DNA from: Desulfobulbaceae bacterium
GTDB taxonomy: Bacteria > Desulfobacterota > Desulfobulbia > Desulfobulbales > Desulfocapsaceae
Assembly: GCA_030632405.1 (NCBI GenBank)
Contig: DAOVUU010000017.1
Span: forward strand, 1-14,082
Direction: 5' to 3'
Length of the DNA: 14,082 bases
The position numbers were made by a program, and so were the translations under genes. The stretch's first letter is position 1, and every line of letters begins with the position of its first letter. Positions 3-14,082 of this stretch are shown one piece after another. Below the pieces are notes generated by a model. It was given only the letters and a program-made list of their open reading frames with translations. It was not told the DNA's origin and searched no databases.

Positions 3-134
3 ACTCCGGATATTAACCTGGAGGAGATTGAAGCGGCAGTGGATGAAGATGCAGAGGATATCCAGTCAAGTCTTGAAGAACTTATAAATGATCTTGAAAA
101 TCCTGATGATGTCACGCCAGTTGAGGATCAATGA
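3..134 (+). CDS. C-terminal fragment of an acidic protein of unknown function
   Basis: The reading frame is open from the left edge and ends in TGA at 132-134, giving 43 residues. Both other forward frames hit stops within the first 15 bases. The fragment is very acidic, rich in Glu and Asp (for example EEIEAAVDEDAEDIQSSLEE), and ends in PVEDQ. It looks like an amphipathic, probably helical or disordered tail. No catalytic motif is visible and I do not recognise the family. Its start lies outside the window, so length, neighbours and function cannot be judged. Confidence 0.6.
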   Translation, partial: TPDINLEEIEAAVDEDAEDIQSSLEELINDLENPDDVTPVEDQ

Positions 135-177
135 TCTGATCTTTTTTGTACATTGTTGGATCAAAGGTTTAATGGTC

Positions 178-426
178 TCACAAGAGCAGGAAAATTTTTA
201 ATCCCATTTCCAACCTCTTGATCACTTGTTTAATCGACTTGCCTAACTCTCTAACAACCCAAAAAACTAAACAGTCTCCTTACCCCACTTTCCAAGATTG
301 CTTGCCCTTGAAAATAATTTTACACAGCTCCGTACCATAGATTTTGGCGACCCTTTCAGCAATTCGCCCCAAACTATACCCTCGGTGTTTCAATTCGTAG
401 TGGCGCTGATGATAAGCGATCAACAT
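178..426 (-). pseudogene. Decayed C-terminus of an IS200-like / REP-associated transposase
   Basis: Read on the minus strand, 426 to 178 is one frame of 83 codons interrupted by a single TAA at 280-282. The first part (48 residues, starting MLIAYHQRHYELKHRGYSL) contains GRIAERVAKIYG and GKQSWKV. The part after the stop contains LVFWVVRELGKSIKQVIKRL. This order resembles the C-terminal helix-turn-helix tail of IS200-like (Y1, REP-associated) transposases, where a segment like RARSLFCYWAVRELGxSxxxLAxxL follows a GKQ-type linker. The N-terminal Y1 catalytic domain (HUH motif, Tyr) is absent: an in-frame stop lies directly upstream of the ATG. I infer a dead relic. The family match is from memory of the consensus, not a search. 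Confidence 0.5.
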
Positions 427-619
427 TTAATGTTACTCTGACCTTAATTATAATTTTAAATCCAAATCATTGTGGGTGAAACCCATGTAAATGTATTTTT
501 TCACTTTAGTACGTTTTTGATTGTTGTATGGATATAAATATATTTTCACTTTTATCGACTGAATTTTGATATTTATTGCTGCGAGTAACTATTAAATTTA
601 ATGCTTTATTAGGGGGATA
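427..619. other. AT-rich spacer with no recognisable gene
   Basis: This stretch between the transposase relic and the uxaA leader is strongly AT-rich and has no convincing coding frame. It carries a 10-nt direct repeat, TTTTCACTTT, at 498-507 and 543-552 that flanks the candidate promoter. That position could suit a regulator, but in AT-rich DNA the repeat may be chance. Confidence 0.4.
517..544 (+). promoter_or_regulatory. Candidate sigma-70 promoter upstream of uxaA
   Basis: TTGATT (517-522) and TATATT (539-544) are separated by 16 nt in an AT-rich spacer, a fair match to the -35 and -10 boxes. Transcription from here would give a leader of about 160 nt before the uxaA ATG. It is a pattern match only; AT-rich DNA produces such pairs by chance. 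Confidence 0.25.
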
Positions 620-685
620 GTGACAAATGCAGTATCAATACCATCAACCTTCAAAATAACTTTTCTCGGCAGAAAAATACATTGA
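620..685 (+). CDS. Possible 21-residue leader ORF ahead of uxaA
   Basis: A GTG at 620-622 follows a strong purine-rich AGGGGG (611-616). It opens a 21-residue frame, beginning TNAVSIPSTFKITF after the start, that ends in TGA at 683-685. The end is 24 nt before the uxaA ATG and in the same frame. The uxaA start itself has no visible Shine-Dalgarno sequence, so re-initiation after this leader is conceivable. The peptide has no run of a single amino acid that would suggest classical attenuation. It may be fortuitous. Confidence 0.2.
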   Translation: MTNAVSIPSTFKITFLGRKIH

Positions 686-709
686 CATGCAGAAACCGAT
701 GCACTAACA

Positions 710-2263
710 ATGCAAAAAACATCTACACCATTCAATATGACAACGCCTAACCCAAAAGTCTTAATTCTCTCCGAAAATGATGATGTTGCTGTAGCTATCT
801 GCGACATCGCAAAAGACATAACCCTCCATGAACTTAAAATAACAACGCAGAAATCAATCCCCAGGGGGCATAAAATTGCACTTCGAGGTCTCAAGGATGG
901 TGACGACGTGCGCAAATATGGACAGATAATTGGATCTGCCGCCACGGAAATTGCTCCGGGTGATCATATTCATGATCACAATCTCACTCTTGAGGTGGCG
1001 ACTGTGCGAACTAAGCCATCGCCCAAAACACGTACTGCGATTGACACGGCAGGTTTGCCTAAAGAGTTTCTAGGTTATCGTCGGGCCAATGGCTTGACTG
1101 GTACCCGCAACTATATTGCTCTTCTTTCGACAGTTAATTGTTCCGCAACTGTGTGCAAAAAAGTTACAGAACATTTTCAGAGCTCGAACAGATTGGACGC
1201 CTATCCGCATCTTGACGGCGTTATCGCCTTTACTCATGGCCTCGGTTGTGCAAATAATCCTAAGGGCAATGGTTTTGATATACTTCAGCGTACGCTCATG
1301 GGGTGTGCTTTAAACCCTAATGTTGCAGCGGTCCTCGTCATTGGTCTTGGATGTGAAACAAATCAGGCTCAGTTTCTATTTGAGAGATACGGATTATCGG
1401 AAACTGATTGCCTGCGATTTTTTAACATCCAGGATGCTGGAGGAACAAAAGCGTCCATTAGAAAGGCCATTGACTACATCAACATTATGCTGCCACAGGT
1501 CAATAACATCCAAAGGCAGAAGCTGCCTGTCAGTGAATTGAGACTTGCCCTGCAGTGTGGTGGCTCTGATGCATACTCTGGCATCACCGCAAACCCGGCT
1601 CTGGGCCATGCTTCTGACCTTTTAGTGGAGCTGGGCGGCACAGCTATTCTTTCAGAAACACCAGAAATATACGGTGCCGAACATCTATTGATGCTGCGGG
1701 CGGCAACACCTGAAGTAGCAGTCAAGCTGAAGGCTCGTATTTCCTGGTGGAAAGATTATGCAAGCAAAAACAATGCAGATTTGGATAACAACCCCTCCTA
1801 CGGCAATAAATTGGGTGGACTGTCGACGATCTACGAGAAATCGCTTGGAGCGGTTGCAAAAGCCGGGCAGAGCCCCCTCAATGCTGTCTATGAGTTTGGA
1901 GAACCTGTAACTGAGCGGGGCCTGGTTTTCGTTGATACACCAGGCTACGACCCAATCTGTTCGACTGGTCAGATTGCAGCCGGTGCTAATATCATGTGCT
2001 TTACTACCGGGCGTGGATCAGTTTCCGGATTTAAACCGGTACCAACCTTGAAGCTTGCGACCAACACGCTGATGTATGAACATATGCAGGATGATATGGA
2101 CATCAACTGCGGTGAAATTGTTGAGGGTGAAAGAATAGAAAAAATTGGACGCCGTATCTTCGAATATATCGTCGCCACCGCGTCGGGTTCCCGTACTGCA
2201 AGTGAGCGAAATGGCTTCGGTGATCATGAATTTGTCCCCTGGCAGCTGGATGCCCTTCTTTAA
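710..2263 (+). CDS. UxaA-family hydroxyacid dehydratase (altronate/galactarate dehydratase-like)
   Basis: This protein of 517 residues has the usual two-part UxaA layout: an N-terminal SAF domain (about residues 15-100) and a long UxaA catalytic domain. Family hallmarks are visible: GTRNYIALLSTVNCSATV, FTHGLGCANN, VIGLGCETNQ, LQCGGSDAYSGITANPALG, FVDTPGYDPICSTGQIAAGAN, FTTGRGSVSGFKPVPTLKLATN and DMDINCGEI. The repeated Cys residues fit a metal-dependent lyase. Members dehydrate altronate or galactarate; the related SuyAB proteins cleave sulfolactate, so the substrate is uncertain. The ATG at 710 has no clear ribosome-binding site, and an in-frame ATG at 737 (MTTPNPKVLILS) begins closer to the SAF domain, so the true start may be 737. 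The TRAP transporter downstream suggests that the substrate is an imported organic acid. Confidence 0.88.
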   Translation: MQKTSTPFNMTTPNPKVLILSENDDVAVAICDIAKDITLHELKITTQKSIPRGHKIALRGLKDGDDVRKYGQIIGSAATEIAPGDHIHDHNLTLEVATVRTKPSPKTRTAIDTAGLPKEFLGYRRANGLTGTRNYIALLSTVNCSATVCKKVTEHFQSSNRLDAYPHLDGVIAFTHGLGCANNPKGNGFDILQRTLMGCALNPNVAAVLVIGLGCETNQAQFLFERYGLSETDCLRFFNIQDAGGTKASIRKAIDYINIMLPQVNNIQRQKLPVSELRLALQCGGSDAYSGITANPALGHASDLLVELGGTAILSETPEIYGAEHLLMLRAATPEVAVKLKARISWWKDYASKNNADLDNNPSYGNKLGGLSTIYEKSLGAVAKAGQSPLNAVYEFGEPVTERGLVFVDTPGYDPICSTGQIAAGANIMCFTTGRGSVSGFKPVPTLKLATNTLMYEHMQDDMDINCGEIVEGERIEKIGRRIFEYIVATASGSRTASERNGFGDHEFVPWQLDALL

Positions 2264-2315
2264 CTGTGGGTTGAATAGTTTAGTCAAAAGTATAAAAAAG
2301 GAATAAAAACTGAAT

Positions 2316-2332
2316 ACGAGTGCTGCACTCGT
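2316..2332. promoter_or_regulatory. 17-nt palindrome, candidate operator upstream of dctP
   Basis: ACGAGTGC-T-GCACTCGT is a perfect inverted repeat of 8-nt arms around one central base. It lies between uxaA and dctP, 105 nt before the dctP ATG. The compact symmetry resembles the binding site of a dimeric GntR- or LacI-type regulator more than a terminator, and no T-run follows directly. No regulator gene is in the window. Confidence 0.4.
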
Positions 2333-2437
2333 TAAGCCTCGTACAGCGTAAACACAGTATTTTTTTTAAAAAACCAACGCTCAAGTATGATGTTTGTCGT
2401 AGTTAAACCGTTTCATTAATAATGACAGGAGGTTAAA

Positions 2438-3481
2438 ATGGCAAAAAAAAATGTTATGTTTGTATTCACTCTCATCTTGGGGATGGCCCTGATTTTTCCG
2501 GGGATGGTTCTGGCAGAAAAAACATATACCATTCGTTACGCCCACGGTGATCCACCAGATATTACGACCTCTTCGGCCCACGCCGACGCAGTTTTGTTCA
2601 AACGCTATGTGGAAGATCGATCCGGAGGGCGGATAAAAGTTGAAATCTATCCAGCCAATGAACTTGGCTCTGAGCGTGAACAGATTGAAGGTGTTCAACT
2701 TGGCAGTATTCATATGAGCAATATCAGTGAAGGCACAGTAGGAATCTTCTTTCCTGAAATCCTGGCCACTGCTATTCCTTACGCATTTCGGACTTATACC
2801 GAGGCTTGGAGGGTGTTAGACAGCCCGTACATGAAGGAGCTGATGGAAGAAATGCGTAAGAAGACAGGTGTCCGTTGCCTTGACGTCAATCAAAACGGTT
2901 TCAGAAACTTTTCAAATAATGTCCATACCATCAAAACTCCTGCCGATCTCAAAGGGCTGAAAATCAGGACGATGGAGCATCGTGGACATATGAAAATGGT
3001 CGAATCTCTCGGTGGAAACCCGGTTCCCATCGCCTGGGGGGAGTTGTACACAGCTCTACAGCAGAAGGTTGTGGACGGACAGGAAAACCCACCCAGTCTC
3101 GTACTGGCCATGAAATTTTATGAAGTTCAGAAATACTATACCCTTGACGGGCATATCTACAGCATCGATTTCACTTTCATCAACGATAAATTCTACAATT
3201 CTCTACCGGAAGATCTACGCCAAATCGTTTATGAAGCTGCGGATATTGCAGGCTGGCACCACCGAACCACGGAGACATTCGTTTCTAATGAAGTTGCTGT
3301 CGGTGCACTGATTGAAAAGGGTATGGAAGTTTATGTACCCACGGCCGAGGAGATCTCACTTTTCAGTAAAATGTCACAAAAGCCGGTTGTCGACTGGATT
3401 AAAACTCAAATTGACCCCAAGTGGGTTGATGGTTTTGTGGCTGAGATTGATAAGGCCAAAATCGAGCTTAAAGCTCCTTGA
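2438..3481 (+). CDS. dctP: TRAP transporter solute-binding protein, DctP family
   Basis: This periplasmic binding protein of 347 residues delivers a carboxylate substrate to the DctQM membrane complex. A Sec signal peptide is clear: KK, a hydrophobic core FTLILGMALIFPGMV, and cleavage near VLA-EK at residue 26. The mature part starts with YTIRYAHGDPPDITTSSAHADA. It has the family motifs ELGSEREQIEGVQLGSI, LKGLKIRT (whose Arg usually binds the substrate carboxylate), NPVPIAWGELYTALQQKVVDGQENP and FINDKFYNSLPEDLRQIV. The ATG has a perfect AGGAGG (2427-2432) at 5-nt spacing. Length is normal for the family. It is the first gene of the TRAP set, and its strong ribosome-binding site fits the high level needed for a binding protein. 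The exact ligand cannot be read from the sequence; the uxaA neighbour suggests a sugar acid or similar. Confidence 0.93.
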   Translation: MAKKNVMFVFTLILGMALIFPGMVLAEKTYTIRYAHGDPPDITTSSAHADAVLFKRYVEDRSGGRIKVEIYPANELGSEREQIEGVQLGSIHMSNISEGTVGIFFPEILATAIPYAFRTYTEAWRVLDSPYMKELMEEMRKKTGVRCLDVNQNGFRNFSNNVHTIKTPADLKGLKIRTMEHRGHMKMVESLGGNPVPIAWGELYTALQQKVVDGQENPPSLVLAMKFYEVQKYYTLDGHIYSIDFTFINDKFYNSLPEDLRQIVYEAADIAGWHHRTTETFVSNEVAVGALIEKGMEVYVPTAEEISLFSKMSQKPVVDWIKTQIDPKWVDGFVAEIDKAKIELKAP

Positions 3482-3573
3482 TCTGGAGAATATACTGCTG
3501 AATCCATTTTCTCCAGGCAGTTATCTAATATAATTAGTTTGACATAATGGCACCTTGAAAAATTAGCATTTTT

Positions 3574-3621
3574 GTTAAAAATCGAGATCGCCCGTCGAAA
3601 GAAGGCGATCTCGATTTTAAC
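3574..3621. repeat. Long stem-loop in the dctP-dctQ gap
   Basis: The arm at 3574-3592 (GTTAAAAATCGAGATCGCC) pairs with 3604-3621 (GGCGATCTCGATTTTAAC), leaving one bulged A and an 11-nt loop. This gives about 18 base pairs. No T-run follows on either strand, so it is not a standard intrinsic terminator. Such a structure after a binding-protein gene could protect the dctP mRNA 3' end and lower dctQM expression. Confidence 0.7.
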
Positions 3622-3643
3622 GAATCCTGTGGCCATTAAAATG

Positions 3644-3673
3644 ATACTGGCGGTAACCAGTATTTGTTTATTC
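3644..3673 (+). terminator. Weak terminator-like hairpin
   Basis: ATACTGG (3644-3650) and CCAGTAT (3657-3663) form a perfect 7-bp stem with a 6-nt loop, followed by a T-rich tract TTGTTTATTC. The stem is low in G+C and the T-tract is interrupted, so it would at best be a partial (leaky) terminator between dctP and dctQ. Confidence 0.4.
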
Positions 3674-3702
3674 GTTCACGCACCCAGAACTGGAATCAAT
3701 GT

Positions 3703-3739
3703 TTTTTTTGCGAGCCGCCATAGCGAAGCTATGCAAAAA
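3703..3739. repeat. Third hairpin upstream of dctQ
   Basis: CATAGC (3719-3724), a GAA loop, and GCTATG (3728-3733) form a tight 6-bp hairpin. Outside it, a T-run plus GC (around 3705-3711) can pair with GCAAAAA (3733-3739). This lies 24 nt ahead of the dctQ ribosome-binding site and is the third structure in a gap of about 300 nt. Confidence 0.4.
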
Positions 3740-3778
3740 TATCTGAGAGCCGATCTATATATAGGAGGATGAAATTAC

Positions 3779-4291
3779 TTGTTAAGGAACATCGTTTACA
3801 AGATCCACCTGGTATTTGAGATTTTCAGCGAAAAACTGGATCGAGCCGTCCTTCTCTCCATCGTTATCCTGAGCGTACCACTTGTGATAATCATTCTTTA
3901 CGCTGTTTTTATGCGCTATGTAATTAACGCTGCGCCCACCTGGTCTGAAGAGATTGCCAGGTATCTGATGGTCTGGATGTCTCTGCTGGCAACGTCGGCT
4001 GCCATGCGACGGGGACAACATATTGGTTTGACCTTTGTAGTGGAAAAAGCCGGACCTCGGCTCCGCAAGGTATTAAATTTATTGGCCTACGCTCTAGTGC
4101 TCCTGTTTTTCTCCGTTCTAATGGTTAAAGGAATCGATATGACCTTTTTTGTATCACAGCAGCGGTCTCCTTCAGTTAACATCCCCATGTGGATTCCCTA
4201 TCTATCGGTTCCCGTGGCTGGTTTTTTAATGGTGATACAAACCCTCACACTTATATTCAAACAGTTTGAATCTCCAGAGAGGATAAACTGA
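3779..4291 (+). CDS. dctQ: TRAP transporter small membrane subunit, DctQ family
   Basis: This 170-residue inner-membrane protein has four predicted membrane segments (about residues 24-46, 61-76, 98-120 and 137-160). It carries the DctQ signature FMRYVINAAPTWSEEIARYLMVWMSLLATSAAMRRGQHIGL. It partners the large DctM subunit and completes the transporter with DctP. The start is a TTG at 3779, placed 10 nt after GGAGG (3764-3768). The ATG at 3769 abuts that ribosome-binding site with no spacing and opens only a 16-codon out-of-frame ORF, so TTG is the better choice; the next in-frame ATG would cut off the first membrane segment. The rare start codon and the hairpins upstream suggest expression below that of dctP. 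Confidence 0.9.
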   Translation: MLRNIVYKIHLVFEIFSEKLDRAVLLSIVILSVPLVIIILYAVFMRYVINAAPTWSEEIARYLMVWMSLLATSAAMRRGQHIGLTFVVEKAGPRLRKVLNLLAYALVLLFFSVLMVKGIDMTFFVSQQRSPSVNIPMWIPYLSVPVAGFLMVIQTLTLIFKQFESPERIN

Positions 4292-4295
4292 CTCA

Positions 4296-5582
4296 ATGAT
4301 ACCACTTCTTGCCTCTATAGGAATTTTTGTCTTTACTCTCATTATTGGAATCCCAGTGGGTATCTGTCTGGGAATTACCGGAATGATCGGTGTCTATATT
4401 CTCGGAGCCCCCATGGAAGTCGTTGCCCAGCGGATGTTTACCGGTCTAGACTCTTTTCCGCTGATGTGTATTCCCTTTTTCATCATGGCTGGTGAAATAA
4501 TGAACAAGGCAAAGATCACTGACAGGATCATCATTTTTGCTGATGTACTAGTTGGCCGGTTTCGTGGGGCAATGGCCCAAGCAAACGTTGTAGCCAGCAT
4601 GTTCTTCGGGGGCATTACCGGTTCTGCCGCCGCCGATGTCGCAGGTCTTGGAAGCATTCTGATTCCTGCAATGAAAAAAAACGGTTACCCAGCACCGTTT
4701 AGCGCCGCAGTAACCGCTGCATCGTCACTTCAAGGGCCAATCATTCCTCCCAGCATTCTGGCTGTCATTTATGGGGCCACCATGGGTGAGTCTATAGGTG
4801 CTCTGTTTGCGGCAGGCATTCCAATTGGTATAGCAATTGGCCTCTCTGATATGATCATTGTTGCATTCATTGCCGCCAAACAGAAATTTCCGAGACAGGT
4901 CATCCGTGTTACCATCATTGAGTTTGGAAAAATCTTCGGTAATGCATTAGTCGCACTTGTAATGCCCTTGATTATCATCGGGGGGATTTTACTTGGTGTG
5001 TTCACACCCACGGAATCCGCTGCCGTAGCGGTAGGGTACGCCTTTGTCGTCGGTGTATTTTTTTTAAAAACAATCAAAATAAGTGACATCCCGGCCATTT
5101 TGGTCAACTCGGGACTCACTACTGGGGTGGTTTTTCTGCTGCTCGCGTCCGCAAGACTCTATTCATGGATTCTTAGCACAAACCAGATTCCGGCCATGAT
5201 TTCCAGCGGTATTCTTGCTCTGACGTCGAACCCCATCATTATCATTCTACTGATCAATATAATTTTACTTATGGTCGGGTGTGTTATGGATCCAGGCGCT
5301 GCCATTATCATGCTGGCCCCGGTATTAGCTCCATTGGCCATCAGTGCCGGTATTCACCCTGTTCAGTTCGGTCTGATTATGATTGTGAACCTCTGCCTGG
5401 GATTAATCACTCCACCAGTGGGTTTGTGCCTGTTCATCAGTGCAAATATAGCAAAAGTATCCATCGAAGAAGTGGCCAGAGCAGTTTTGCCCTTTTTCTT
5501 TCTCAACATCGTGGTACTACTGGTTGTCTCTTATTTTCAAGGATTTGTTCTATGGGTTCCCAGATTATTTGGTTTTCTATAA
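4296..5582 (+). CDS. dctM: TRAP transporter large permease subunit, DctM family
   Basis: This 428-residue integral membrane protein is almost wholly hydrophobic, with about a dozen membrane segments, and drives cation-coupled uptake of the DctP ligand. Typical DctM features are visible: PVGICLGITGMIGVYILG near the N-terminus, FPLMCIPFFIMAGEIMNKAKITDRII, FFGGITGSAAADVAGLGSILIPAM, AAVTAASSLQGPIIPPSILAVIYGA, GVFTPTESAAVAVGYAF and GLITPPVGLCLF. It starts 4 nt after dctQ ends; a GAGAGG lies 13 nt before the ATG, and coupling to dctQ is likely. Length is normal. The next gene, an ABC ATPase, begins only 4 nt after its stop although it belongs to an unrelated system. Confidence 0.94.
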   Translation: MIPLLASIGIFVFTLIIGIPVGICLGITGMIGVYILGAPMEVVAQRMFTGLDSFPLMCIPFFIMAGEIMNKAKITDRIIIFADVLVGRFRGAMAQANVVASMFFGGITGSAAADVAGLGSILIPAMKKNGYPAPFSAAVTAASSLQGPIIPPSILAVIYGATMGESIGALFAAGIPIGIAIGLSDMIIVAFIAAKQKFPRQVIRVTIIEFGKIFGNALVALVMPLIIIGGILLGVFTPTESAAVAVGYAFVVGVFFLKTIKISDIPAILVNSGLTTGVVFLLLASARLYSWILSTNQIPAMISSGILALTSNPIIIILLINIILLMVGCVMDPGAAIIMLAPVLAPLAISAGIHPVQFGLIMIVNLCLGLITPPVGLCLFISANIAKVSIEEVARAVLPFFFLNIVVLLVVSYFQGFVLWVPRLFGFL

Positions 5583-5586
5583 GACG

Positions 5587-6552
5587 ATGATTCAAATAAA
5601 AGATTTGACCAGATATTACGGTTCTATTCTGGGTGTTGACAACATCAGTTTTCGTTTGAAAAGAGGAACTACCCTCGGATTGCTCGGCCCCAACGGTGCC
5701 GGTAAATCGACTATCATCCGAATGCTGGCCGGCACGCTGATGCCGACTGCTGGCAAAGTGTTCATGACGGAGTCACTGGCAGATCCCAGTAGCCTTGAGT
5801 TTAAAAAACATTTGGGATACCTTCCGGAAACAGCGCCGCTATATTCTCAGATGCCGGTTGACAAATATCTGAAGTTCGTTTCCCAGGTAAAAGGGGTACC
5901 GGCAAAAAAACAGCAGGAGTGTCTGGAACGTGTGCTGTCTCAGTGTCAACTTGAAGATGTAGTGGACAGAAGAATCGGCCGATTGTCGAAAGGATACAGA
6001 CAAAGGGTAGGCCTTGCTCAAGCGTTGATCAACGATCCGTCACTTCTGATTCTCGATGAACCCACGGCAGGGCTTGACCCTCAGCAAACAAACGAATTCA
6101 GAAAACTGATCCGCAGTATGCAGGGGCAGCGAACGGTGCTGCTCAGCACCCATATCTTACCGGAAGTACAATTGCTCTGCAGCCATGTCATCATCATAAA
6201 CAAGGGGAAAATTGCTGCTCAGGGAAAAATAGACGGACTCCTGGCACAGGATCCTTCTCAACAGCGATTTCATCTGGAAATTAGAGGACCCAGCCGGGAA
6301 GTTTTAAATGGACTGGAGAAGTTGCAAGATATTCAGTCGGTTACATTGGTCCGCAAGACGGACAAAGACCAGTTCGTTTACCTGCTGATATCCAACAATA
6401 CAACAGACCCGCGTGACCAACTAATTCATCTGATTGCCGGACATGAATGGCAATTGCTTGAATTACGTCCGAATCACCAAGAACTTGAAAAGTTATTCCT
6501 TGCTGCTATTTCAGAAACTATGGAAGATGAAAGCATTCAATTCTCTGTTTAA
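5587..6552 (+). CDS. ABC transporter ATPase, GldA-like (ABC-2 type)
   Basis: This 321-residue cytoplasmic ATPase would power the membrane module encoded by the next genes. Walker A is GPNGAGKST (residues 34-42), the signature is LSKGYRQRVG (133-142), Walker B is LLILDE (153-158) followed by PTAGLDP, and the switch His is H189 in LLSTH. The Q-loop position reads GYLPE, which is common in the GldA/ABC-2 export branch. A C-terminal region of about 110 residues follows the ATPase core. The chosen ATG gives MIQIKDLTRYYG, a standard start for these proteins; the frame is open further upstream but would run into dctM. There is no strong ribosome-binding site, so coupling to dctM translation is likely. 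The substrate of this module is unknown. Confidence 0.9.
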   Translation: MIQIKDLTRYYGSILGVDNISFRLKRGTTLGLLGPNGAGKSTIIRMLAGTLMPTAGKVFMTESLADPSSLEFKKHLGYLPETAPLYSQMPVDKYLKFVSQVKGVPAKKQQECLERVLSQCQLEDVVDRRIGRLSKGYRQRVGLAQALINDPSLLILDEPTAGLDPQQTNEFRKLIRSMQGQRTVLLSTHILPEVQLLCSHVIIINKGKIAAQGKIDGLLAQDPSQQRFHLEIRGPSREVLNGLEKLQDIQSVTLVRKTDKDQFVYLLISNNTTDPRDQLIHLIAGHEWQLLELRPNHQELEKLFLAAISETMEDESIQFSV

Positions 6553-7297
6553 ACGCGAGCTTTACGCCTACTTCCTGTCCCCTGTAGCCTATGCCGTATT
6601 GGGAGTATTTTTATTACTGTGCGGCTATTTTTTTTCCAGAAGTATTGCATATTTCAGCTATCTTAGTGTTCAGGCTGGCTACGATACCTCCCTGCAAGCC
6701 CACGTTAACGTCCATGAACTGATTCTCCGTCCGCTGTTTTCCAGTATCACCCTGATGCTCATTTTTTTGATTCCTCTGCTGACTATGCGAACCTTTTCGG
6801 AAGAGAAAAAGCAGGGTACATTGGAACTATTGCTGTCCTATCCAACAAGCGACACAGTCATCATTCTTGCGAAAAATGGAGTCTGCCTTCTTGTCGTTTT
6901 AACCGGTTTGCTGGGCACGGCAATATATCCAGCAATAATTTTTGCTCTGAGCCATCCGGACACCGGACCGATCTTCACCGGCTACCTGGGGTTAGTCTTT
7001 CTGGCCGCCAGCCTGGTTTCTATTGGCACGCTCTTTTCTATTTTTACGGAAAATCAAACTGTTGCAGCAGTCTCTGCATTTGGAGTTATCTTACTACTTT
7101 GGAGCCTGGCATGGTTTGTTGACTTTGTTCCGGGAGTACTAGGTGTTATTTTGAATGAGCTATCCATCCAATCTCATTTCCAATCATTTGCAAGGGGACA
7201 GATTTCTACCCGTGATGTGATCTATTTTATCAATATTACAATTATTTTTAATGTTCTTGCCATTCAAGCTCTCAAGCGGGGAATTCGCTGCCGATAA
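6527..7297 (+). CDS. ABC-2 type permease, GldF-like
   Basis: This 256-residue membrane protein is the permease partner of the preceding ATPase. It opens with MKAFNSLFKRELYAYFLSPVAYAVLGVFLLLCGYFF, typical of GldF-like ABC-2 permeases, and has about six membrane segments. The conserved stretch LIFLIPLLTMRTFSEEKKQGTLELLLSYPTSD is characteristic of the family. The ATG at 6527 lies inside the end of the ATPase gene, a 26-nt overlap that supports translational coupling; GGAAG sits directly before it with unusually short spacing. An upstream in-frame ATG (6434) would add 31 residues without family character and was not used. The GldG-like gene follows after 4 nt. Confidence 0.88.
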   Translation: MKAFNSLFKRELYAYFLSPVAYAVLGVFLLLCGYFFSRSIAYFSYLSVQAGYDTSLQAHVNVHELILRPLFSSITLMLIFLIPLLTMRTFSEEKKQGTLELLLSYPTSDTVIILAKNGVCLLVVLTGLLGTAIYPAIIFALSHPDTGPIFTGYLGLVFLAASLVSIGTLFSIFTENQTVAAVSAFGVILLLWSLAWFVDFVPGVLGVILNELSIQSHFQSFARGQISTRDVIYFINITIIFNVLAIQALKRGIRCR

Positions 7298-7301
7298 TAC
7301 A

Positions 7302-8639
7302 ATGAAAACCCGAAATATTTCATACATCAACGGGTTCGTAGTTACCCTTTTGCTTCTGGGTATTCTGGTTCTTGTTCAACTCATCGCATACCGTCAGGAG
7401 CTTAGATGGGATTTTACTGACTCCGGGCGTTACAGCCTCTCCGGCCAAAGTCGGGATGTCCTTGCCATGCTGGAGGCACCGCTTACGGCAGTGGCCTTTT
7501 ATGGTGAAACAGACAGCGGTTTACCCCAGGTGCGTGAACTTTTCAGAGAGTACGCTCTGGCCTATCCACCATTTCAATCTAAAATAGTCAATCCCACCAA
7601 AAACCCCGCTATAACACAGCAATATCAGATAAAAAGCCACGGAACTATAGTTCTTGAGTACCGCGGCCTGCGAAGAAAAGTTGTCGGAGCGGATGAGGAA
7701 CGTCTGACGAATGCAATCTACCGATTAATCGATAGCCGCCGCAAGACCATTTATTTCACTCAAGGACATGGAGAGAAAGGGAAAAGTCAGGGAGGGGAAC
7801 AATTGTGGCAGGCATTGGAAGAAGAAAATTACCGGGTTGCTCCACTTTCCATGATCAAAACCAGTCAAATACCCGGAGACGCGAGCTGCCTCATAATTGC
7901 CGGACCGCGAGCTGATTTTTTTCAACAAGAAATAAAACAACTGAATGCTTATATGCGCAGTGGGGGGAGCGTGGTAGTGCTTCTCGACCCCTACCATGAT
8001 GCCGGGCTCAAAACATTTCTGCATACCTATGGTATTCTGCTCCCTGAAATGAGCATCGTGGACAAAATCGCTAAACTGCCAAATGGTGGTGATTTGTTTC
8101 CAGCAGTTTCACGATACAGTTCCCACCCCATTACCCGCCATCTGTCCCAGTTAACTTTTTTTCCGGTGGCCCACCCTATTAATATTGTTGACCCGCTTTC
8201 TGAAACTCTTACAGTCGACCTCCTGGTGCAAACCGAAATCAGTGCCTGGGGGGAATCTGACCGACAAAGCTTAATCGACAAAGAGAGTGATTTTGATCCG
8301 GATAAGGATATGCCCGGTCCGCTGAATATCGGTGTTGCTGTAAAGGTTTCTAACAAAGACAGTCAAGAAGAATCACGTCTTGTGGTTTTCGGAGATTCTG
8401 ATTTTGTTAATGACAGCTACCTGTTCATGGCCGGTAACAGAGATTTGGCGCTTAATATGATGGCGTGGGCAGCTGCACGCGAAGGGTACATTACTGTTCG
8501 CTCCCGAGAAAGCGGCTTTACCCCTATCATCCTCTCAGAAATGCAGCAGCGTGCAGTCTTTTGGGTGTCACTCTGCCTGGCACCAGGTATCGTATTAATA
8601 ATCGGAGTATGGGTTCGGTTACGATGGATGAAAAAATAG
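7302..8639 (+). CDS. GldG-like auxiliary protein of an ABC export system
   Basis: This 445-residue protein has one membrane segment at the N-terminus (about residues 11-29, GFVVTLLLLGILVLVQLIA), then RQELRWDFTDSGRYSLSGQSRDVL, the usual opening of GldG-like auxiliary proteins (COG3225). A large extracytoplasmic domain follows, with KTIYFTQGHGEKG, a GGSVVVLLDPYHDAGLKTFL segment and LVVFGDSDFVND. A second membrane segment lies at the extreme C-terminus (AVFWVSLCLAPGIVLIIGVWV). The ATG is 4 nt after the permease stop. The gene ends in TAG, which matters here because the window encodes tRNA-Pyl: readthrough would add only seven residues before a TGA at 8661-8663. The stop overlaps the start of the DUF4340 gene, so UAG as a true stop is the simplest reading. 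Confidence 0.85.
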   Translation: MKTRNISYINGFVVTLLLLGILVLVQLIAYRQELRWDFTDSGRYSLSGQSRDVLAMLEAPLTAVAFYGETDSGLPQVRELFREYALAYPPFQSKIVNPTKNPAITQQYQIKSHGTIVLEYRGLRRKVVGADEERLTNAIYRLIDSRRKTIYFTQGHGEKGKSQGGEQLWQALEEENYRVAPLSMIKTSQIPGDASCLIIAGPRADFFQQEIKQLNAYMRSGGSVVVLLDPYHDAGLKTFLHTYGILLPEMSIVDKIAKLPNGGDLFPAVSRYSSHPITRHLSQLTFFPVAHPINIVDPLSETLTVDLLVQTEISAWGESDRQSLIDKESDFDPDKDMPGPLNIGVAVKVSNKDSQEESRLVVFGDSDFVNDSYLFMAGNRDLALNMMAWAAAREGYITVRSRESGFTPIILSEMQQRAVFWVSLCLAPGIVLIIGVWVRLRWMKK

Positions 8640-10387
8640 ATTACCGGACCATCGGTATCATGACAACCATCTGGCTATTACTCCTTGGCTACCTGGTATG
8701 GTTCCCCCTGCAAAATGAGCGTCATGGTTATGTCGGTGCATTTATCACTGGAGAAACCTCCGTCCAGCAGATTGTCAGAATTTTGATCAAAAAACCGGAT
8801 GGCGAATCCTTTGAATATGTCAAAATGTCGGACCACTGGCAGATTCAGGAACCTTACCAGGCAGCAGCCAGCGAACCAATGATTCAGGAACTTCTCGGTG
8901 CGGTAGGGAAGACCCGGATAATGGATATCGTTGCAAAACAACCGGAAACTCTTTCACCATATGGTCTTGAAGATGGTAAGCGCTTAGAAGCCACCTTTGA
9001 ATTCGAGAACGGGAGGGAGAGTACCTTCAGGATCGGGGCACGTCTTCCACTTAACCAGATCTACGTTTATTTTCAAAAAGAAGGAGACTCTTCTGTTTTC
9101 AGGGTATGGGAAGGTATACGATCAACCCTCGAAAGACATGCCTCTGTTCTGGATCAGGGACAACCAGTTCGGTTCAACCCTTCCACCATTGTTTCACTTG
9201 AATTAGAGCGTGAGGGGCGTTTTGTACGTTTGGAAAAACGGAATGTAAATTGGTTTGTGACTAGTCCAATGCAACGTGCAGCCACCACCGAAACGGTGCA
9301 ATTATATCTCGAATCGATCTTGGCTCTCACATCCAGTGAAGCTTATCCAGATGGAGCCATGTTTCAAAAGAAAGTCGATAATTCCAATCATTTCAAATTA
9401 ACTTTGAATCAAGATAATGGAGGTGAACCGATAACTATCCACTTGACGCCGAAAGATTCATTGGCTCCAGCCCTTCTTGCCATTGAGCAGGGTGGGCAGT
9501 CGGTTATTTACTCAACTGACCCTCGAGCCATGGACAAACTATCATTTGATCCAGATGATTTTTATCTATCAAACGCACTTGTATTTGATATCGATACCAT
9601 AACAAATATCGAGGTATTGAAACCTCAATATTCTCTTAAGCTTAAGCGTAACCCTGATGGCTCGTGGCAATTTTACCACCCCTATGACAGGCAAAGGGCT
9701 GATTCGGACACTGTCAATCAGCTTCTCCACTTACTGAGAAATCTGCCAGTCGAACAATACTTAGAAGAAGAGAAGGAGAATATTGATTCAGCAGAATCTG
9801 GAATACTCGTAAAACTGTTTGGCAACACAGATTCTACTACCTTAAAAATCATTAAAAACCCCAGTGGACATTACCGTGGAACCTCTGTACACCACCCACA
9901 CTGGTACCGTCTGAATTCAGATACAATAAAACGGTTGGGAGAATTTTCTCCGGACGCACTCGTCGATCGGCATTTACTGGCATTCGACCCTCTGAGTGTT
10001 GAGCGAATTACTGTACAACGGGGAGAGAATTATTACGTGTTGACCAAAAAGGGTAATGCATGGACATGGGAAAAACCACAGAAGAAGAAAGCCCGCACTG
10101 CTATGGCATGGAGGTTTGTATTCGGTATCAGAAATCTCCAGTACCAGAGGCTGGTTAGAGAAAATACAGGGCGAGGATCTAGAGAGGATCATTGTGGTTT
10201 TCTGGACCCCGATATTACCATTTATATTCAGCTGGCCGGCGCAGAAGTGGACAACGAAATGAGACTGAAGGCTGCAAAAACCAGGGAGGGAATGATCGTC
10301 TCGACCAGCCTTTTTCCAGGATGTTACCTGGTTGAAACAGCTTTCGCCGACCATATTCTTCCAGATTTTGCTGTCTTGGAAGATTGA
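8624..10387 (+). CDS. DUF4340 membrane-anchored protein of the Gld-type ABC cluster
   Basis: This 587-residue protein has one N-terminal membrane anchor (TIGIMTTIWLLLLGYLVWF) followed by a long extracytoplasmic region with DUF4340-like repeats: a block such as VRILIKKPDGESFEYVKMSDHWQI recurs in variant form as IVSLELEREGRFVRLEKRNVNWFV, NIEVLKPQYSLKLKRNPDGSWQF and VERITVQRGENYYVLTKKGNAWTW. DUF4340 genes usually follow gldG in this type of cluster, but their function is unknown; a role in folding or presenting the exported substrate is a guess. The start is an ATG at 8624 (MDEKIDYRT), overlapping gldG by 16 nt; the in-frame ATG at 8609 (MGSVTMDEK) is an alternative adding five residues. A start further upstream would lie deep inside gldG. 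Confidence 0.82.
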   Translation: MDEKIDYRTIGIMTTIWLLLLGYLVWFPLQNERHGYVGAFITGETSVQQIVRILIKKPDGESFEYVKMSDHWQIQEPYQAAASEPMIQELLGAVGKTRIMDIVAKQPETLSPYGLEDGKRLEATFEFENGRESTFRIGARLPLNQIYVYFQKEGDSSVFRVWEGIRSTLERHASVLDQGQPVRFNPSTIVSLELEREGRFVRLEKRNVNWFVTSPMQRAATTETVQLYLESILALTSSEAYPDGAMFQKKVDNSNHFKLTLNQDNGGEPITIHLTPKDSLAPALLAIEQGGQSVIYSTDPRAMDKLSFDPDDFYLSNALVFDIDTITNIEVLKPQYSLKLKRNPDGSWQFYHPYDRQRADSDTVNQLLHLLRNLPVEQYLEEEKENIDSAESGILVKLFGNTDSTTLKIIKNPSGHYRGTSVHHPHWYRLNSDTIKRLGEFSPDALVDRHLLAFDPLSVERITVQRGENYYVLTKKGNAWTWEKPQKKKARTAMAWRFVFGIRNLQYQRLVRENTGRGSREDHCGFLDPDITIYIQLAGAEVDNEMRLKAAKTREGMIVSTSLFPGCYLVETAFADHILPDFAVLED

Positions 10388-10432
10388 CTACGAAGCATCC
10401 CTTTATCTTTATAATTACAGACCAGAGAGGAC

Positions 10433-11224
10433 ATGAAAATGATTTTTGATCAATTTAATCTTGCGGGTAAAGTTGCGGTTGTTGTTGGCGGAACAGGTGG
10501 CATAGGTGAAGCATTGTCTTTAGGGCTGGCAGAAGCCGGGGCAGATGTAGTGTCAACAAGCAGGAACTCTGCTAAAGTAGCTGATATTTCAAATAAAATA
10601 AAAGCATTGGGCAGAAACACATTTGAGATACAGACAGATGCGACCAGTGAAAAAGACATAAGAACTCTGTCTGAAAAATCGTTAGAATTTTACGGAAAGA
10701 TCGATATCTTGGTTAATGGTGCTGGTGTTAATATAAGAAAAAATGTTGTTCAGATGACATACAATGATTGGGCTACGGTATTAAAAACTAATCTTGATTC
10801 TGTTTTTTTAAGTTCCAAGTATTTTTCAAAAAATATGATTGAAAGAAAATATGGGAAAATACTTAACATTGGTTCTTTAACCTCTGTAGTTGCTATGAGT
10901 AATTCATGTGCGTATGCTGCCAGCAAAGGAGGCGTCGTGCAGTTAACAAAAGCTCTGGCTGTTGAATTATCAAAGTATAATATAAACGTAAATGCAGTAT
11001 TACCCGGTTATTTCAGTACTGAAATGACTGAACCGATAATGCAAAATAGTGTGACTTACAACAGAATTATTGAGAGAACTCCTATGAACAGGATAGGAAC
11101 AGTTGACGAACTTATTGGCACGGCAATATTTCTAACGTCTGACGCCTCTAAATTCATAACGGGTGAAACACTGGCAGTAGATGGCGGTTTTTTATCATTT
11201 GGAGTCGATTTAGCGTTAAAGTAA
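10433..11224 (+). CDS. Short-chain dehydrogenase/reductase (SDR), sugar-acid dehydrogenase-like
   Basis: This 263-residue classical SDR is an NAD(P)-dependent oxidoreductase. The cofactor site is VGGTGGIG (residues 18-25), in which the usual first Thr of TGxxxGxG is Val. NGAG (95-98), N120, S148 and Y161-x3-K165 complete the catalytic set, and the C-terminal half has the usual VNAVLPGYFSTEM and FITGETLAVDGGF. It resembles gluconate 5-dehydrogenase and 2-deoxygluconate dehydrogenase types, but the substrate is not certain. A GAGAGG at 10425-10430 sits 2 nt before the first ATG and 8 nt before a second ATG at 10439, so translation may begin at 10439. Codon use is visibly more AT-rich than in the ABC genes upstream. 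It would fit the uxaA-TRAP pathway better than the ABC module. Confidence 0.87.
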   Translation: MKMIFDQFNLAGKVAVVVGGTGGIGEALSLGLAEAGADVVSTSRNSAKVADISNKIKALGRNTFEIQTDATSEKDIRTLSEKSLEFYGKIDILVNGAGVNIRKNVVQMTYNDWATVLKTNLDSVFLSSKYFSKNMIERKYGKILNIGSLTSVVAMSNSCAYAASKGGVVQLTKALAVELSKYNINVNAVLPGYFSTEMTEPIMQNSVTYNRIIERTPMNRIGTVDELIGTAIFLTSDASKFITGETLAVDGGFLSFGVDLALK

Positions 11225-11301
11225 TGGGTGATATCGGGGAAAAGACTAAGAAACGTTGTAATCAGCAGTTCAAATGAAGCAAATATCAGGCGGACAACCT
11301 C

Positions 11302-11541
11302 GTGAGAGCGGTTAATGCATTATTAAAAAATATCAAGATTCCTCTGATGTACAAAATAAAGCAAGAATTTGTCTCAAAACCATTGAATGATATTGAGGAA
11401 ACTTGTCTTAAACAGATTATATCACTTGACCGTTTGAAAAGAATGAGAATGGTGCAGGAAAGCCAGAGCCCACAGGCAACGCAGCACAGTATGGATCAAG
11501 AGGAACTATTCGACAAAAGTAATTGTCGCATCTTTAGGTAG
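11302..11541 (+). pseudogene. Truncated ORF resembling the N-terminus of a LarA-like (DUF2088) racemase
   Basis: A GTG start with a modest AGG-C-GG ahead of it opens 79 codons. The first part, NALLKNIKIPLMYKIKQEFVS followed by LNDIEETCLKQI, resembles the opening of lactate-racemase-related (LarA homologue, DUF2088/COG3875) proteins, which have an LLKxVKxPxMxKVxQxFD-type start. Those proteins are over 400 residues, so this is at most a stub. After about residue 45 the sequence looks unrelated, and the frame ends in TAG at 11539-11541. It overlaps the 3' end of the convergent minus-strand gene by 36 nt. LarA homologues act on hydroxyacids, which would match uxaA and the TRAP genes. The assignment is from memory of the family consensus. 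Confidence 0.4.
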
Positions 11542-11847
11542 AGCCAACCCTACACTCACTTCCAACGCCTTTAAAATTCCGGATATCACGGGACATGACA
11601 CATGGGGGATTGTTTTCAGGCTAACATCCAATACTTGAGAATTAAGGGTTCCAGTCTTTTTATCTTTAAACAGTTCAGTCATCATATTAAGTGTTTTTCC
11701 TCCCAGAATTTCATCAACTTTCCTCCAGTTAGGGCATTCACTGTCTAACCGGAAGGAGGCTTTATACCCACTCTTATCTTCAGCATGGACTGTAGTGACA
11801 AATCCACAAATCCCACCAAATATTTCTACGTTAACTATTTTATGCAT
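11506..11847 (-). CDS. Small conserved three-cysteine protein of unknown function (DUF6951-like)
   Basis: This 113-residue protein has no membrane segment or signal peptide. Conserved-looking blocks are FGGICGFVTTVHAE (C14), SECPNW (C38) and HVSCPVISGILKALEVSVGLALPKDATITF (C85). The pattern matches a small protein family that I recall as DUF6951, which has no established function; the three Cys could bind metal or form a redox site. The ATG has a strong AGAGGAG at 5-6 nt spacing, so it is probably a real, expressed gene. It is the only complete gene on the minus strand and is divergent from pylT. It ends in TAG (11506-11508). Readthrough as pyrrolysine would add 27 residues antisense to the LarA-like stub, but the protein already ends where the family normally does, so UAG is probably a true stop. 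Confidence 0.75.
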   Translation of the reverse strand: MHKIVNVEIFGGICGFVTTVHAEDKSGYKASFRLDSECPNWRKVDEILGGKTLNMMTELFKDKKTGTLNSQVLDVSLKTIPHVSCPVISGILKALEVSVGLALPKDATITFVE

Positions 11848-12153
11848 GATACTCCTCTTTAAACATTTTTTATTCTATCCGTAAAAGCTCCATTGATATC
11901 AATAAAAAGACTGTTCCGCTTAGCCGACATAAAGAAAACTGTTTTACCCGGAAGTATGAACGACAGCAAGATAAATACGTCAATATACAGTTCCCGATAT
12001 GCTGCTTTTGGGACACAAAAACCTGAAGAAAAGCATATCTGTCCCTCTGTCTGATGGTGCAATAGAGACAATGGATAAAATTCTTGTAGATTTTAATATC
12101 CAATAGGTATACAAGAGGCAGTTAGAGGACGAGTGGTTTTGTTTTTTTATTAC
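11848..12153. other. Spacer between the divergent small gene and pylT
   Basis: Several short overlapping frames occur on both strands, but none has a convincing ribosome-binding site or recognisable motif. A + strand frame through about 11890-12053 (ending EEKHICPSV before TGA) reads like degraded coding sequence, but I cannot name it. A T-rich tract, TTTTGTTTTTTTATTA (12137-12152), directly precedes pylT. The region must carry the promoters of both divergent transcripts. Confidence 0.4.
12084..12113 (+). promoter_or_regulatory. Candidate promoter of pylT
   Basis: TTGTAG (12084-12089) and TATACA (12108-12113) are 18 nt apart, an acceptable -35/-10 pair about 40 nt before the tRNA. No other pair in the spacer looked better. 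Pattern match only. Confidence 0.3.
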
Positions 12154-12226
12154 GGAGGGTGGATCGGATGGGATCACATGGACTCTAAATCCATGCAGCC
12201 GGGTGCGACTCCCGGGCTCTCCGCCA
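12154..12226 (+). tRNA. pylT: tRNA-Pyl, amber-decoding (anticodon CUA)
   Basis: This 73-nt tRNA includes an encoded CCA (12224-12226). It folds with a 7-bp acceptor stem (12154-12160 with 12216-12222, one G-U and one terminal U-G), a D stem GATC/GATC (12162-12165 with 12172-12175) with a short loop, a 6-bp anticodon stem CATGGA/TCCATG (12177-12182 with 12190-12195), the loop CTCTAAA with anticodon CUA at 12185-12187, a 3-nt variable loop CAG, and a 5-bp T stem CCGGG/CCCGG. One base links the acceptor and D stems, and one base joins the D and anticodon stems. The small D loop, long anticodon stem, 3-nt variable loop and T loop without TTC are hallmarks of tRNA-Pyl, and the sequence closely resembles the Desulfitobacterium type as I recall it. 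It inserts pyrrolysine at in-frame UAG codons after charging by PylSc/PylSn. Confidence 0.95.
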
Positions 12227-12318
12227 TTTTACAAGTGCTCAACACTCTGATTTGAATTGATCAGAATAGAGATAAACAGGCTGTAGATATTTTAGCTTTA
12301 ACAACAGGAGAAAGGGAA

Positions 12319-12951
12319 ATGACAGATTTTAGTGCAATGCAGGACGCCTTGATAAACTGTGACCAGGATAAACTTGTGGGACTGGTTAATACTGCTCTGG
12401 CTGATGATGCACCGGCAGTAGATATCCTTAATCAGGGCCTTATTGCCGGGATGGATGTTGTTGGTGAGAGAATGGAAGAAGGCGATATGTTTATTCCCGA
12501 AGTACTTATGGCTGCCAAGGCTATGGCTGAATGTGTCGGTATTTTGAGACCTCTGCTTGGTGAAGAAGACGCCGGTCAGGAAACAAATGTACTTATCGGA
12601 ACGGTGAAAGGGGATCTTCATGATATTGGAAAAAATCTTGTGTCCATGATGATGGAGAGTGCCGGTATGACTGTTCATAACCTGGGCGTTGATATCGGGC
12701 CCGAAGACTTTGTAGCTCAGATAAAAGAAAAAGATGCCCGGATTGTCTGTCTGTCAGCCCTTTTGACAACCACCATGCCCATGATGAAGCAGACCATAGA
12801 TGCCATAGTCGAAGCAGGATTAAGAGATCAGGTCAAAATAATGGTTGGTGGTGCACCCGTAACCCAGGCCTTTGCTGATGATATCGGGGCCGACGGGTTT
12901 GCACCGGATGCCGGTTCCGCTGCCAAATTTGCCAAAACCCTAATCAACTAA
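12319..12951 (+). CDS. Corrinoid methyl-carrier protein, MttC/MtbC family
   Basis: This 210-residue cytoplasmic cobalamin-binding protein accepts a methyl group from a methyltransferase such as the pyrrolysine-containing MttB or MtbB and passes it on. Residues 1-88 form the helical cap domain (NQGLIAGMDVVGERMEEGDMFIPEVLMAAKAM). Residues 89-210 are the B12-binding Rossmann domain with DLHDIG (DxHxxG, His101 as the lower cobalt ligand), SALLTT (146-151) and GGAPV (178-182). AGGAG (12306-12310) lies 8 nt before the ATG. Which methylamine it serves cannot be told from sequence alone; the trimethylamine type (MttC) is plausible. It lies 92 nt downstream of pylT, and a clear terminator follows it, so it may form a unit with the tRNA. 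No methyltransferase gene is visible next to it, which is unusual because the pair is normally adjacent. Confidence 0.92.
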   Translation: MTDFSAMQDALINCDQDKLVGLVNTALADDAPAVDILNQGLIAGMDVVGERMEEGDMFIPEVLMAAKAMAECVGILRPLLGEEDAGQETNVLIGTVKGDLHDIGKNLVSMMMESAGMTVHNLGVDIGPEDFVAQIKEKDARIVCLSALLTTTMPMMKQTIDAIVEAGLRDQVKIMVGGAPVTQAFADDIGADGFAPDAGSAAKFAKTLIN

Positions 12952-12985
12952 CCCTGAGAAAATTATCACCAGAACCTTCATAACC

Positions 12986-13032
12986 TTAATGATGGATGCA
13001 TGAATGAACTCCGCCATCATTAATGTTTTTTT
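12986..13032 (+). terminator. Intrinsic terminator after the corrinoid protein gene
   Basis: TTAATGATGG (12986-12995) and CCATCATTAA (13014-13023) form a perfect 10-bp stem with an 18-nt loop, followed by TG and seven T (13026-13032). It lies 35 nt after the corrinoid gene stop and separates it from pylB, so pylB is either read through at low level or has its own promoter. Confidence 0.8.
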
Positions 13033-13106
13033 CCGGTAAATTTCTCAAAGGAATAAAGGCAGGTGCAACTTCAGGCTGACAACCTGTTGCATTAGGGGAA
13101 AGTATT

Positions 13107-14082
13107 GTGTTGACATCAGATTCCAATCTGACCAGGATTTTAGATCGTTTACAAAATGTTCATATTGCTGGAAAAACCGAGATAAAATACCTTCTCGGTC
13201 TTTCCGCTCCTGAAGAAATAGATCTGCTTTTCGAAGCAGCCCGCAATATACGAGCCAGGTATTTCGGCAACAAAATTTTCCTGTACGGATTTCTCTATTT
13301 TTCCACACACTGCCGAAACAACTGCAGATTCTGCCAATACAGACAATCTAACAAAACGATTCCCCGATATCGTAAGACTGATGCGGAGATCCTTACAGCA
13401 GCCAGAGAAATGGCTGCCAGTGGGGCACACCTTATAGATCTGACAATGGGTGAAGATCCGATACTCTATTCTTCAGAAGAATTTGGATCCGAACGCCTGC
13501 TCACCATGATCAAAACTGTCCGGAATGAAACCAGCCTTCCCCTTATGATTTCCCCCGGCACCCTGCCCGACAACGTCCTTGAGGAACTTGCGGCTGTCGG
13601 AGTCTTCTGGTACGCCTGTTACCAGGAAACCCACAATAAAACCTTGTATGAAAAATTACGCCCGGGACAACCATTTGAAAAAAGAGTGGCAAAAAAACAG
13701 CTGGCAAAAAATAACGGAATGCTCGTTGAAGAAGGTATCCTCACCGGAGTGGGAGAAACGCTGGATGATCTGGCCGACTCCATTATCTGGATGAGAGATT
13801 TTTCTGTGGACCAGGCCCGGGTAATGACTTTCGTCCCCCAGGCTGGAACGCCAATGGCTGATATAAAGGCTCAAGGCAGTTTAAAAGAACAGATAATCAT
13901 TTCGGTCATGCGGTTGATCCTTCCCGACCGGCTTATTCCAGCCTCTCTGGATGTTGACGGCCTTGAAGGTTTAAAAGCAAGGTTGGATGCAGGAGCCAAT
14001 GTAGTGACTTCTATTGTTCCTCCAGAAAAAGGTCTGGCTGGAGTTGCCCATAATTCTCTTGATATTGAGGATTCCCGTAGAA
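13107..14082 (+). CDS. pylB: PylB, methylornithine synthase (radical SAM), 3' end outside the window
   Basis: PylB makes (3R)-3-methyl-D-ornithine from lysine, the first step of pyrrolysine synthesis. The 325 residues present run from VLTSDSNLTRIL to the right edge with no stop; the family is about 350 residues, so little is missing. The radical SAM cluster motif is HCRNNCRFCQYR, with C69-x3-C73-x2-C76. Other typical stretches are IPRYRKTDAEI, GAHLIDLTMGEDP, MISPGTLPDNVL, WYACYQETHN, KLRPGQPFEKRV, VEEGILTGVGET, MTFVPQAGTPM and RLIPASLDVDGLEGLKARLDAGANVVTSIVPP. The GTG start follows AGGGGA (13094-13099) at 7 nt. A terminator lies upstream. pylT nearby strongly supports the assignment over biotin synthase or HydE, its closest relatives. 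No in-frame TAG occurs. Confidence 0.94.
   Translation, partial: MLTSDSNLTRILDRLQNVHIAGKTEIKYLLGLSAPEEIDLLFEAARNIRARYFGNKIFLYGFLYFSTHCRNNCRFCQYRQSNKTIPRYRKTDAEILTAAREMAASGAHLIDLTMGEDPILYSSEEFGSERLLTMIKTVRNETSLPLMISPGTLPDNVLEELAAVGVFWYACYQETHNKTLYEKLRPGQPFEKRVAKKQLAKNNGMLVEEGILTGVGETLDDLADSIIWMRDFSVDQARVMTFVPQAGTPMADIKAQGSLKEQIIISVMRLILPDRLIPASLDVDGLEGLKARLDAGANVVTSIVPPEKGLAGVAHNSLDIEDSRR

Follow-up and report, generated by a model that had tools for sequence, protein, structure and literature searches.

The 14,082 nt stretch analysed here (the window) is the entire contig C256 of a 2.67 Mb, 421-contig metagenome-assembled genome (MAG; 72.7% complete, 3.65% contamination), and sequence comparison confirmed that it carries an intact, genuine tRNA-Pyl gene. 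We consider it probable, at roughly 80%, that this is a working bacterial-type tRNA-Pyl in a pyrrolysine and methylamine gene set of the Desulfobacula type, which was either acquired laterally or misbinned, and which has been rearranged. Overall, the tRNA-Pyl is genuine and the pyrrolysine system to which it belongs was recovered in part, its sole further interest lying in the rearranged cluster and the missing pylSn. Pyrrolysine coding in marine Deltaproteobacteria is already published: as described in the text of Kivenson et al. 2021 (PMC8318568), tRNA-Pyl, PylBCD, a synthetase and MttB with an in-frame amber codon occur in Desulfobacula-related MAGs, and the kind of finding is therefore known. 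What is new here is a Desulfobacula-type cluster in a bin of the Desulforhopalus family, a tRNA-pylB junction free of pylSn, and two eroded methyltransferase genes.

A complete tRNA-Pyl gene

The initial annotation had called a complete tRNA-Pyl on the strength of its diagnostic fold, and both the call and every element of the fold were borne out. ARAGORN found a single tRNA in the whole window, a tRNA-Pyl at 12154–12226 on the forward strand with a CTA anticodon at 12185–12187 (tRNA position 32; CUA in the transcript) and an encoded CCA tail (12224–12226). The acceptor, D, anticodon and T stems comprise 7, 4, 6 and 5 bp, respectively, with a single base between the acceptor and D stems, a D loop of 6 nt, a variable loop of 3 nt (CAG) and a T loop, TGCGACT, that lacks TTC. 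These agree with the features of anticodon stem, variable loop, acceptor-D linker, D loop and T loop listed for tRNA-Pyl in a 2025 review (PMC11764691), the D loop being 6 nt here and 5 nt there. No tRNA match was reported by Rfam at 12154–12226, even at E = 1, and a scan of the assembly found no second tRNA-Pyl.

A set of 61 tRNA-Pyl genes (48 distinct) was collected from 82 sequences, namely the window, locus L022 and 80 PylB-bearing loci. The 73 letters of the window gene recur unchanged in three of these loci, one of them from the cultured Desulfospira joergensenii (L050; the others are L047 and L052), and 100% copies were found in four other genomes (G094, G098, G099 and G107). When 39 of the 61 genes were aligned (38 distinct rows, 22 pairs, 836 cells), 100% of the cloverleaf cells were standard pairs, compared with a mean of 93.2% in 500 shuffles. 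Changes on both sides were seen at 15 of the 22 pairs, with 71 such changes against 17.5 in the shuffles, and none of the 500 shuffles equalled the observed value on any measure. Because the same 73 letters occur in other genomes and the stems covary, a chance fold was ruled out; with the ARAGORN call and the nearby pylB also against it, the reading of the fold as chance or as another suppressor tRNA, to which the silence of Rfam could be credited, has a negligible probability. The tRNA would be charged with pyrrolysine.

Genes around the tRNA

The tRNA is flanked by a small set of intact and eroded genes (Table 1). The nearby pylB of the initial annotation was recovered downstream, with a corrinoid protein gene lying between it and the tRNA. 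The pylB product, as in a bacterial pyrrolysine set, scored 472.7 bits against TIGR03910 (cut-off 348.2), and its dN/dS was 0.08–0.16 against chosen relatives. The corrinoid protein scored 211.5 bits against its best NCBIfam match, NF041607 (cut-off 350), and 188.8 bits against TIGR02370 (cut-off 215.3); since both scores lie below the curated cut-offs we describe it only as MttC-like. Its gene (hereafter mttC) gave pairwise dN/dS values of about 0.07–0.13 against six relatives.

Table 1. Features of the pyrrolysine cluster and its borders in the window.
Feature	Position	Strand	Evidence
DUF6951 gene	11506..11847	-	PF22263, 101.4 bits; adjoins pyl cluster
Remnant, last 18 codons of a TAG-less MttB-family gene	12041..12094	+	blastn E 8e-9; tblastn 67% over 18 aa, E 2e-4
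tRNA-Pyl gene	12154..12226	+	ARAGORN; same letters in L047, L050, L052; covariation
Spacer, 92 nt, site of pylSn in relatives	12227..12318	.	Junction alignment; no pylSn or clear remnant
Methylamine-type corrinoid protein (MttC/MtbC-like), 210 aa, no internal stop	12319..12951	+	PF02607 and PF02310
Remnant, 3′ part of methyltetrahydrofolate:corrinoid methyltransferase gene	12959..13067	+	tblastn against L048; blastn E 4e-13
pylB (methylornithine synthase), 325 codons, runs off contig end, no internal stop	13107..14082	+	TIGR03910

The remnant upstream of the tRNA has an intact counterpart that sits directly 5′ of tRNA-Pyl in locus L043. The second remnant carries an in-frame stop and deletions, and matched the intact gene of L048 by tblastn over 22 aa (82%, E 5e-9) and 13 aa (62%, E 0.002). 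That gene, a member of family NF005719 (330.5 bits, cut-off 259), is intact between mttC and pylB in L043, L048, L049 and others. Between 11850 and 13110 there were no promoter-like sites on the forward strand, a point against a working cluster, and two on the reverse strand (2.7 expected).

Elsewhere in the window, a gliding-type ABC operon (GldA-like, permease, GldG-like and DUF4340 genes) occupies 5524–10387 on the forward strand. Close relatives of its GldG-like protein are few. In 23 other genomes (6 of the same genus, 5 of the same family and 12 pyl-bearing) the protein had either no match or a short one of no more than 39% identity. A long hairpin lies at 3554–3639 on the reverse strand, between genes for a TRAP solute-binding protein and a small permease; Rfam matched it to mir-544 under the gathering score, and the family label is likely due to chance.

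The rest of the pyrrolysine set in the assembly

The initial annotation further held that this genome reads some UAG codons as pyrrolysine. A search of the assembly supported this without yielding a complete set: pylSc and an mttB with an in-frame TAG were recovered, whereas the 73%-complete bin gave no pylC, pylD or pylSn. The proposal had been staked on the presence of a synthetase or biosynthesis gene and of a gene with a conserved internal TAG, and the assembly holds both kinds. The catalytic synthetase subunit PylSc is encoded on contig C138 and scored 296.6 bits against a curated cut-off of 178.15; its gene is cut by the contig end and is followed by a corrinoid-activase gene (ramA/acsV-like). 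This PylSc keeps 73 of the 74 columns conserved at ≥90%, and is the most diverged of six compared, at 63–68% identity to five relatives that share 68–88% among themselves (seven pairs computed).

The trimethylamine methyltransferase MttB is encoded on contig C196 (TIGR02369, 744.6 bits; cut-off 525). Its gene has a single in-frame TAG, codon 328 of 490, in the conserved pyrrolysine column. A TAG stands at this column in all 10 MttB genes chosen from other genomes and in none of four MttB-family paralogues compared from the same assembly; the four were taken from seven further MttB-family matches on six contigs, all free of internal stops. The MttB is 88% identical to that of a Desulfobacula (L042), with a dN/dS of about 0.07. 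Next to mttB is a gene that we take to be dimethylglycine-dehydrogenase-like (dmgdh-like), with NCBIfam GcvT and sarcosine-oxidase-type matches below cut-off. Routine gene calling would cut mttB at codon 328, in keeping with the truncation of UAG-containing genes that had been foreseen.

Neither pylC nor pylD gave a match over its cut-off in the 73%-complete bin, the only matches being weak ones of other proteins, and a profile of four PylSn sequences retrieved nothing from the assembly at E ≤ 1. TAG also terminates genes in this assembly (14 of 59 ORFs of ≥150 aa on ten contigs), so "some UAG" is the right wording. We rejected a further candidate pyrrolysine codon, the TAG at codon 533 of the ramA/acsV-like gene on C138, and take it as an ordinary stop, since the next stop follows five codons later and the TAG lies past the aligned end (codon 527) of the closest relative, L051, although the alignment runs a few residues further in two distant relatives. 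No sign of relaxed selection was seen in pairwise dN/dS, computed by a simple counting method with dS saturated in several pairs, including all five PylSc pairs of the assembly.

In the mechanism that we propose, PylB, PylC and PylD would make pyrrolysine from lysine, and PylSc, normally together with PylSn, would load it on tRNA-Pyl. The CUA anticodon would then read the sole internal UAG of mttB, placing pyrrolysine in the enzyme, and MttB would demethylate its presumed substrate, trimethylamine, passing the methyl group to the corrinoid protein whose gene starts 92 nt after the tRNA.

Origin of the cluster

Judged by its sequences, the window cluster is of the Desulfobacula type, though the MAG is assigned to the Desulforhopalus family; that family includes Desulforhopalus vacuolatus, for which NCBI gives the family Desulfocapsaceae. 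The closest known systems are the clusters of L042, L048, L068 and D. joergensenii (L050), in which tRNA-Pyl is 99–100% and PylB, over aligned codons, 69–77% identical to those of the window; L042 and L050 also share with the window assembly the MttB TAG column and the dmgdh-like neighbour. In L042 and L048 the order tRNA-pylSn-pylB-pylC-pylD-pylSc forms one run, with mttC and the methyltransferase gene between pylSn and pylB in L048; the L050 locus lacks pylSc, and that of L068 lacks pylC, pylD and pylSc. In the window, by contrast, neither pylSn nor the methyltransferase gene stands between tRNA and pylB, and mttB and pylSc lie on other contigs. In the dual-code marine Deltaproteobacteria described in PMC8318568 the MttB UAG is at codon 327 of 485, compared with 328 of 490 here, and the MAGs described there are Desulfobacula-related, unlike the bin of the window. 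In D. vacuolatus (L120), from the bin's own family, tRNA-Pyl is 96% identical, and a DUF6951 gene (14044–14382) directly after pylSc is 79.6% identical to that of the window, but its PylB is only 54% identical and, unlike the window, it has the complete tRNA-pylSn-B-C-D-Sc order.

PylB was found at E ≤ 1e-40 in four of 93 genomes of the family, including that of the window, and in none of six other genomes of the same genus. Among the 80 of 357 matches listed, from which some near records may be missing, seven PylB sequences were 75–78% identical to the window PylB, five of them named Desulfobacula (78% for L042). A quick maximum-likelihood tree with SH-aLRT support only was built from 83 of 85 rows, leaving out L021 (from the same genome as L120) and one row of fewer than 280 residues. 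The window PylB fell inside a 26-row clade (starred in the tree; SH-aLRT 96), the other rows of which are from Desulfobacteraceae genera or the family as such, unplaced Delta- or Proteobacteria, Desulfobacterales and, elsewhere in the clade from the window, D. vacuolatus; the position of the window within the clade is less sure (SH-aLRT 83 for a 12-row group). Forcing the four same-family PylB rows together cost 44 log units (p-AU 0.007), a test that left the identical G091 rows free and hence rests on three rows. As for the DUF6951 gene, few of the best 120 homologues are named; these include Desulfobacula and Desulfospira, and the named Desulfobacula homologues are 82–88% identical, so that the few named relatives appear to lean to Desulfobacula. 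L120 apart, the pyl loci of the other genomes compared gave no match to this gene at E ≤ 1e-8.

Either lateral transfer or misbinning could explain the cluster, with a Desulfobacula-like organism as the donor in the first case and as the true owner of the contigs in the second. The second course, in which the cluster is real but the contig was misbinned and the filed organism does not read UAG as pyrrolysine, is possible, at somewhat less than even odds. It would account for the closeness of PylB and the tRNA to those of Desulfobacula and Desulfospira type, the rejection of a single same-family PylB clade in the three-row test, the lack of PylB in the six congeners, and the DUF6951 identities among the few named homologues, and the bin's contamination of 3.65% allows for it. 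Against it, matching pieces of the system are spread over three contigs of the bin (C256, C138 and C196), although these might all be foreign. In tetranucleotide composition the window also resembles 19 readable bin stretches (r 0.964) and two genomes of the same genus, G028 and G029 (r 0.937 and 0.942), more closely than it does the Desulfobacula genome G095 (r 0.915). Composition leans weakly to the bin; the test is a weak one because four of the 19 bin stretches resemble G095 more than they do the rest of the bin. The GldG-like gene of the contig had only brief and weak matches, both in genomes of the genus and in those of Desulfobacula type, and so favours neither reading. Nor did the GldG-like and altronate-dehydratase-like proteins serve as lineage markers, since their close relatives bear no organism names. 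Carriage on a plasmid or phage was rejected, as no plasmid matched PylB at E ≤ 1e-40 or window positions 1–12100 by megablast, and the four phage records that match PylB do so at 23–31%.

The missing pylSn

The junction between tRNA-Pyl and pylB was compared with the 25 other rows of the PylB clade (some share a genome), 18 of which have tRNA-Pyl in the locus. In 17 of these, all but L056, the stretch from tRNA-Pyl to pylB contains pylSn; the matched PylSn start follows the tRNA by 25–80 nt in 16 loci and by 5,164 nt in L066. In the window the corrinoid gene begins 92 nt after tRNA-Pyl, with no pylSn between tRNA and pylB. A pylSn remnant in the 92 nt spacer was rejected: in local alignments with each of five relatives, between 10 and 273 of the 300 shuffles scored as high, and the two best alignments (L043 and L048) covered just the final bases upstream of mttC. 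That the methyltransferase gene is gone tells us little about pylSn, because L045, L051 and L052 lack the former and keep the latter; several other relatives have neither the methyltransferase gene nor mttC between tRNA-Pyl and pylB.

Across 22 pyl-bearing genomes, tRNA-Pyl was found in all, PylSc at E ≤ 1e-30 in 20 (19 over the cut-off; misses G094 and G110), and a match to the PylSn profile at E ≤ 0.1 in 20, counting a 40-residue fragment in G095; the two misses for PylSn were G110 and the genome of the window. Split clusters have precedents, with tRNA and pylB on one contig (L056) and pylSn and pylSc on another in G106, and tRNA, pylSn and pylSc together on a contig separate from the L054 pylB in G101. 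Given the 73% completeness of the bin, the concurrent lack of pylC and pylD and these precedents, the likeliest explanation places pylSn, pylC and pylD ahead of pylSc on a piece that was not assembled, in which case the organism would have all three. Rearrangement would then have removed pylSn and the methyltransferase gene from between tRNA and pylB, with pylSn most likely kept in a pylC-pylD-pylSc group as in relatives with split clusters.

Other loci of the clade vary in their own ways. In Desulfobacula sp. co234_bin15, pylB starts at 10001 of L044 with neither pylC nor pylD in the locus and is preceded at 9881–9982 by a pylSn fragment of 40 residues with one TAG (E 2e-10); tRNA-Pyl and PylSc are on another contig, and the L044 pylB with its fragment is perhaps a decayed second copy. 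Among the matches listed, two or three pylB loci occur in at least six genomes (L050/L064, L045/L047, L053/L058, L057/L066/L069, L056/L061 and L096/L117), including that of D. joergensenii.

That pylSn was truly lost, leaving a PylSc that works alone or a system in decay, we regard as unlikely. Such a loss would fit the absence of pylSn from its usual place and from the assembly, the erosion of two neighbouring genes and the divergence of PylSc, and the D. hafniense PylRS is described as active in vivo without its N-terminal part (PMC11764691). It is opposed by the incompleteness of the bin, from which pylC and pylD, the neighbours of pylSn in relatives, are missing too; by the identity of the tRNA to that of four genomes with PylSn; by the retention of the 3 nt variable loop, a feature tied to PylSn-type enzymes in the same review; and by the low dN/dS of pylB, mttC and mttB and the conserved columns of PylSc. 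PylSn-free enzymes are described from archaea (PMC3941956, PMC9071458), and a true lack of PylSn in the window assembly would parallel the ΔPylSn systems of Methanomassiliicoccales, but their tRNAs are reshaped (PMC3941956, PMC11764691), whereas the window tRNA is of ordinary bacterial form. All 81 bacterial PylRS then found belonged to the PylSn+PylSc group according to the 2025 review, and neither the relevant passages of that review nor the literature searched gave a published bacterial exception. It is even more doubtful that we are looking at a first bacterial ΔPylSn lineage, one that kept PylSc, tRNA-Pyl and a UAG-containing MttB with its tRNA not reshaped as in archaea.

Implications

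A Desulfobacula-type system of which part was not assembled, our preferred reading, adds one more genome to the group of sulfate reducers in which UAG is partly a sense codon, and in which routine gene calling truncates mttB. The literature searched held nothing on pyrrolysine in the family of the bin. If the bin is right, this would be a further instance of a pyrrolysine cluster crossing a family boundary. With pylSn missing, the lineage offers a candidate case for the question of whether pyrrolysine coding can persist in bacteria that lack the tRNA-binding subunit; a PylSn-free bacterial system, if true, would be new.
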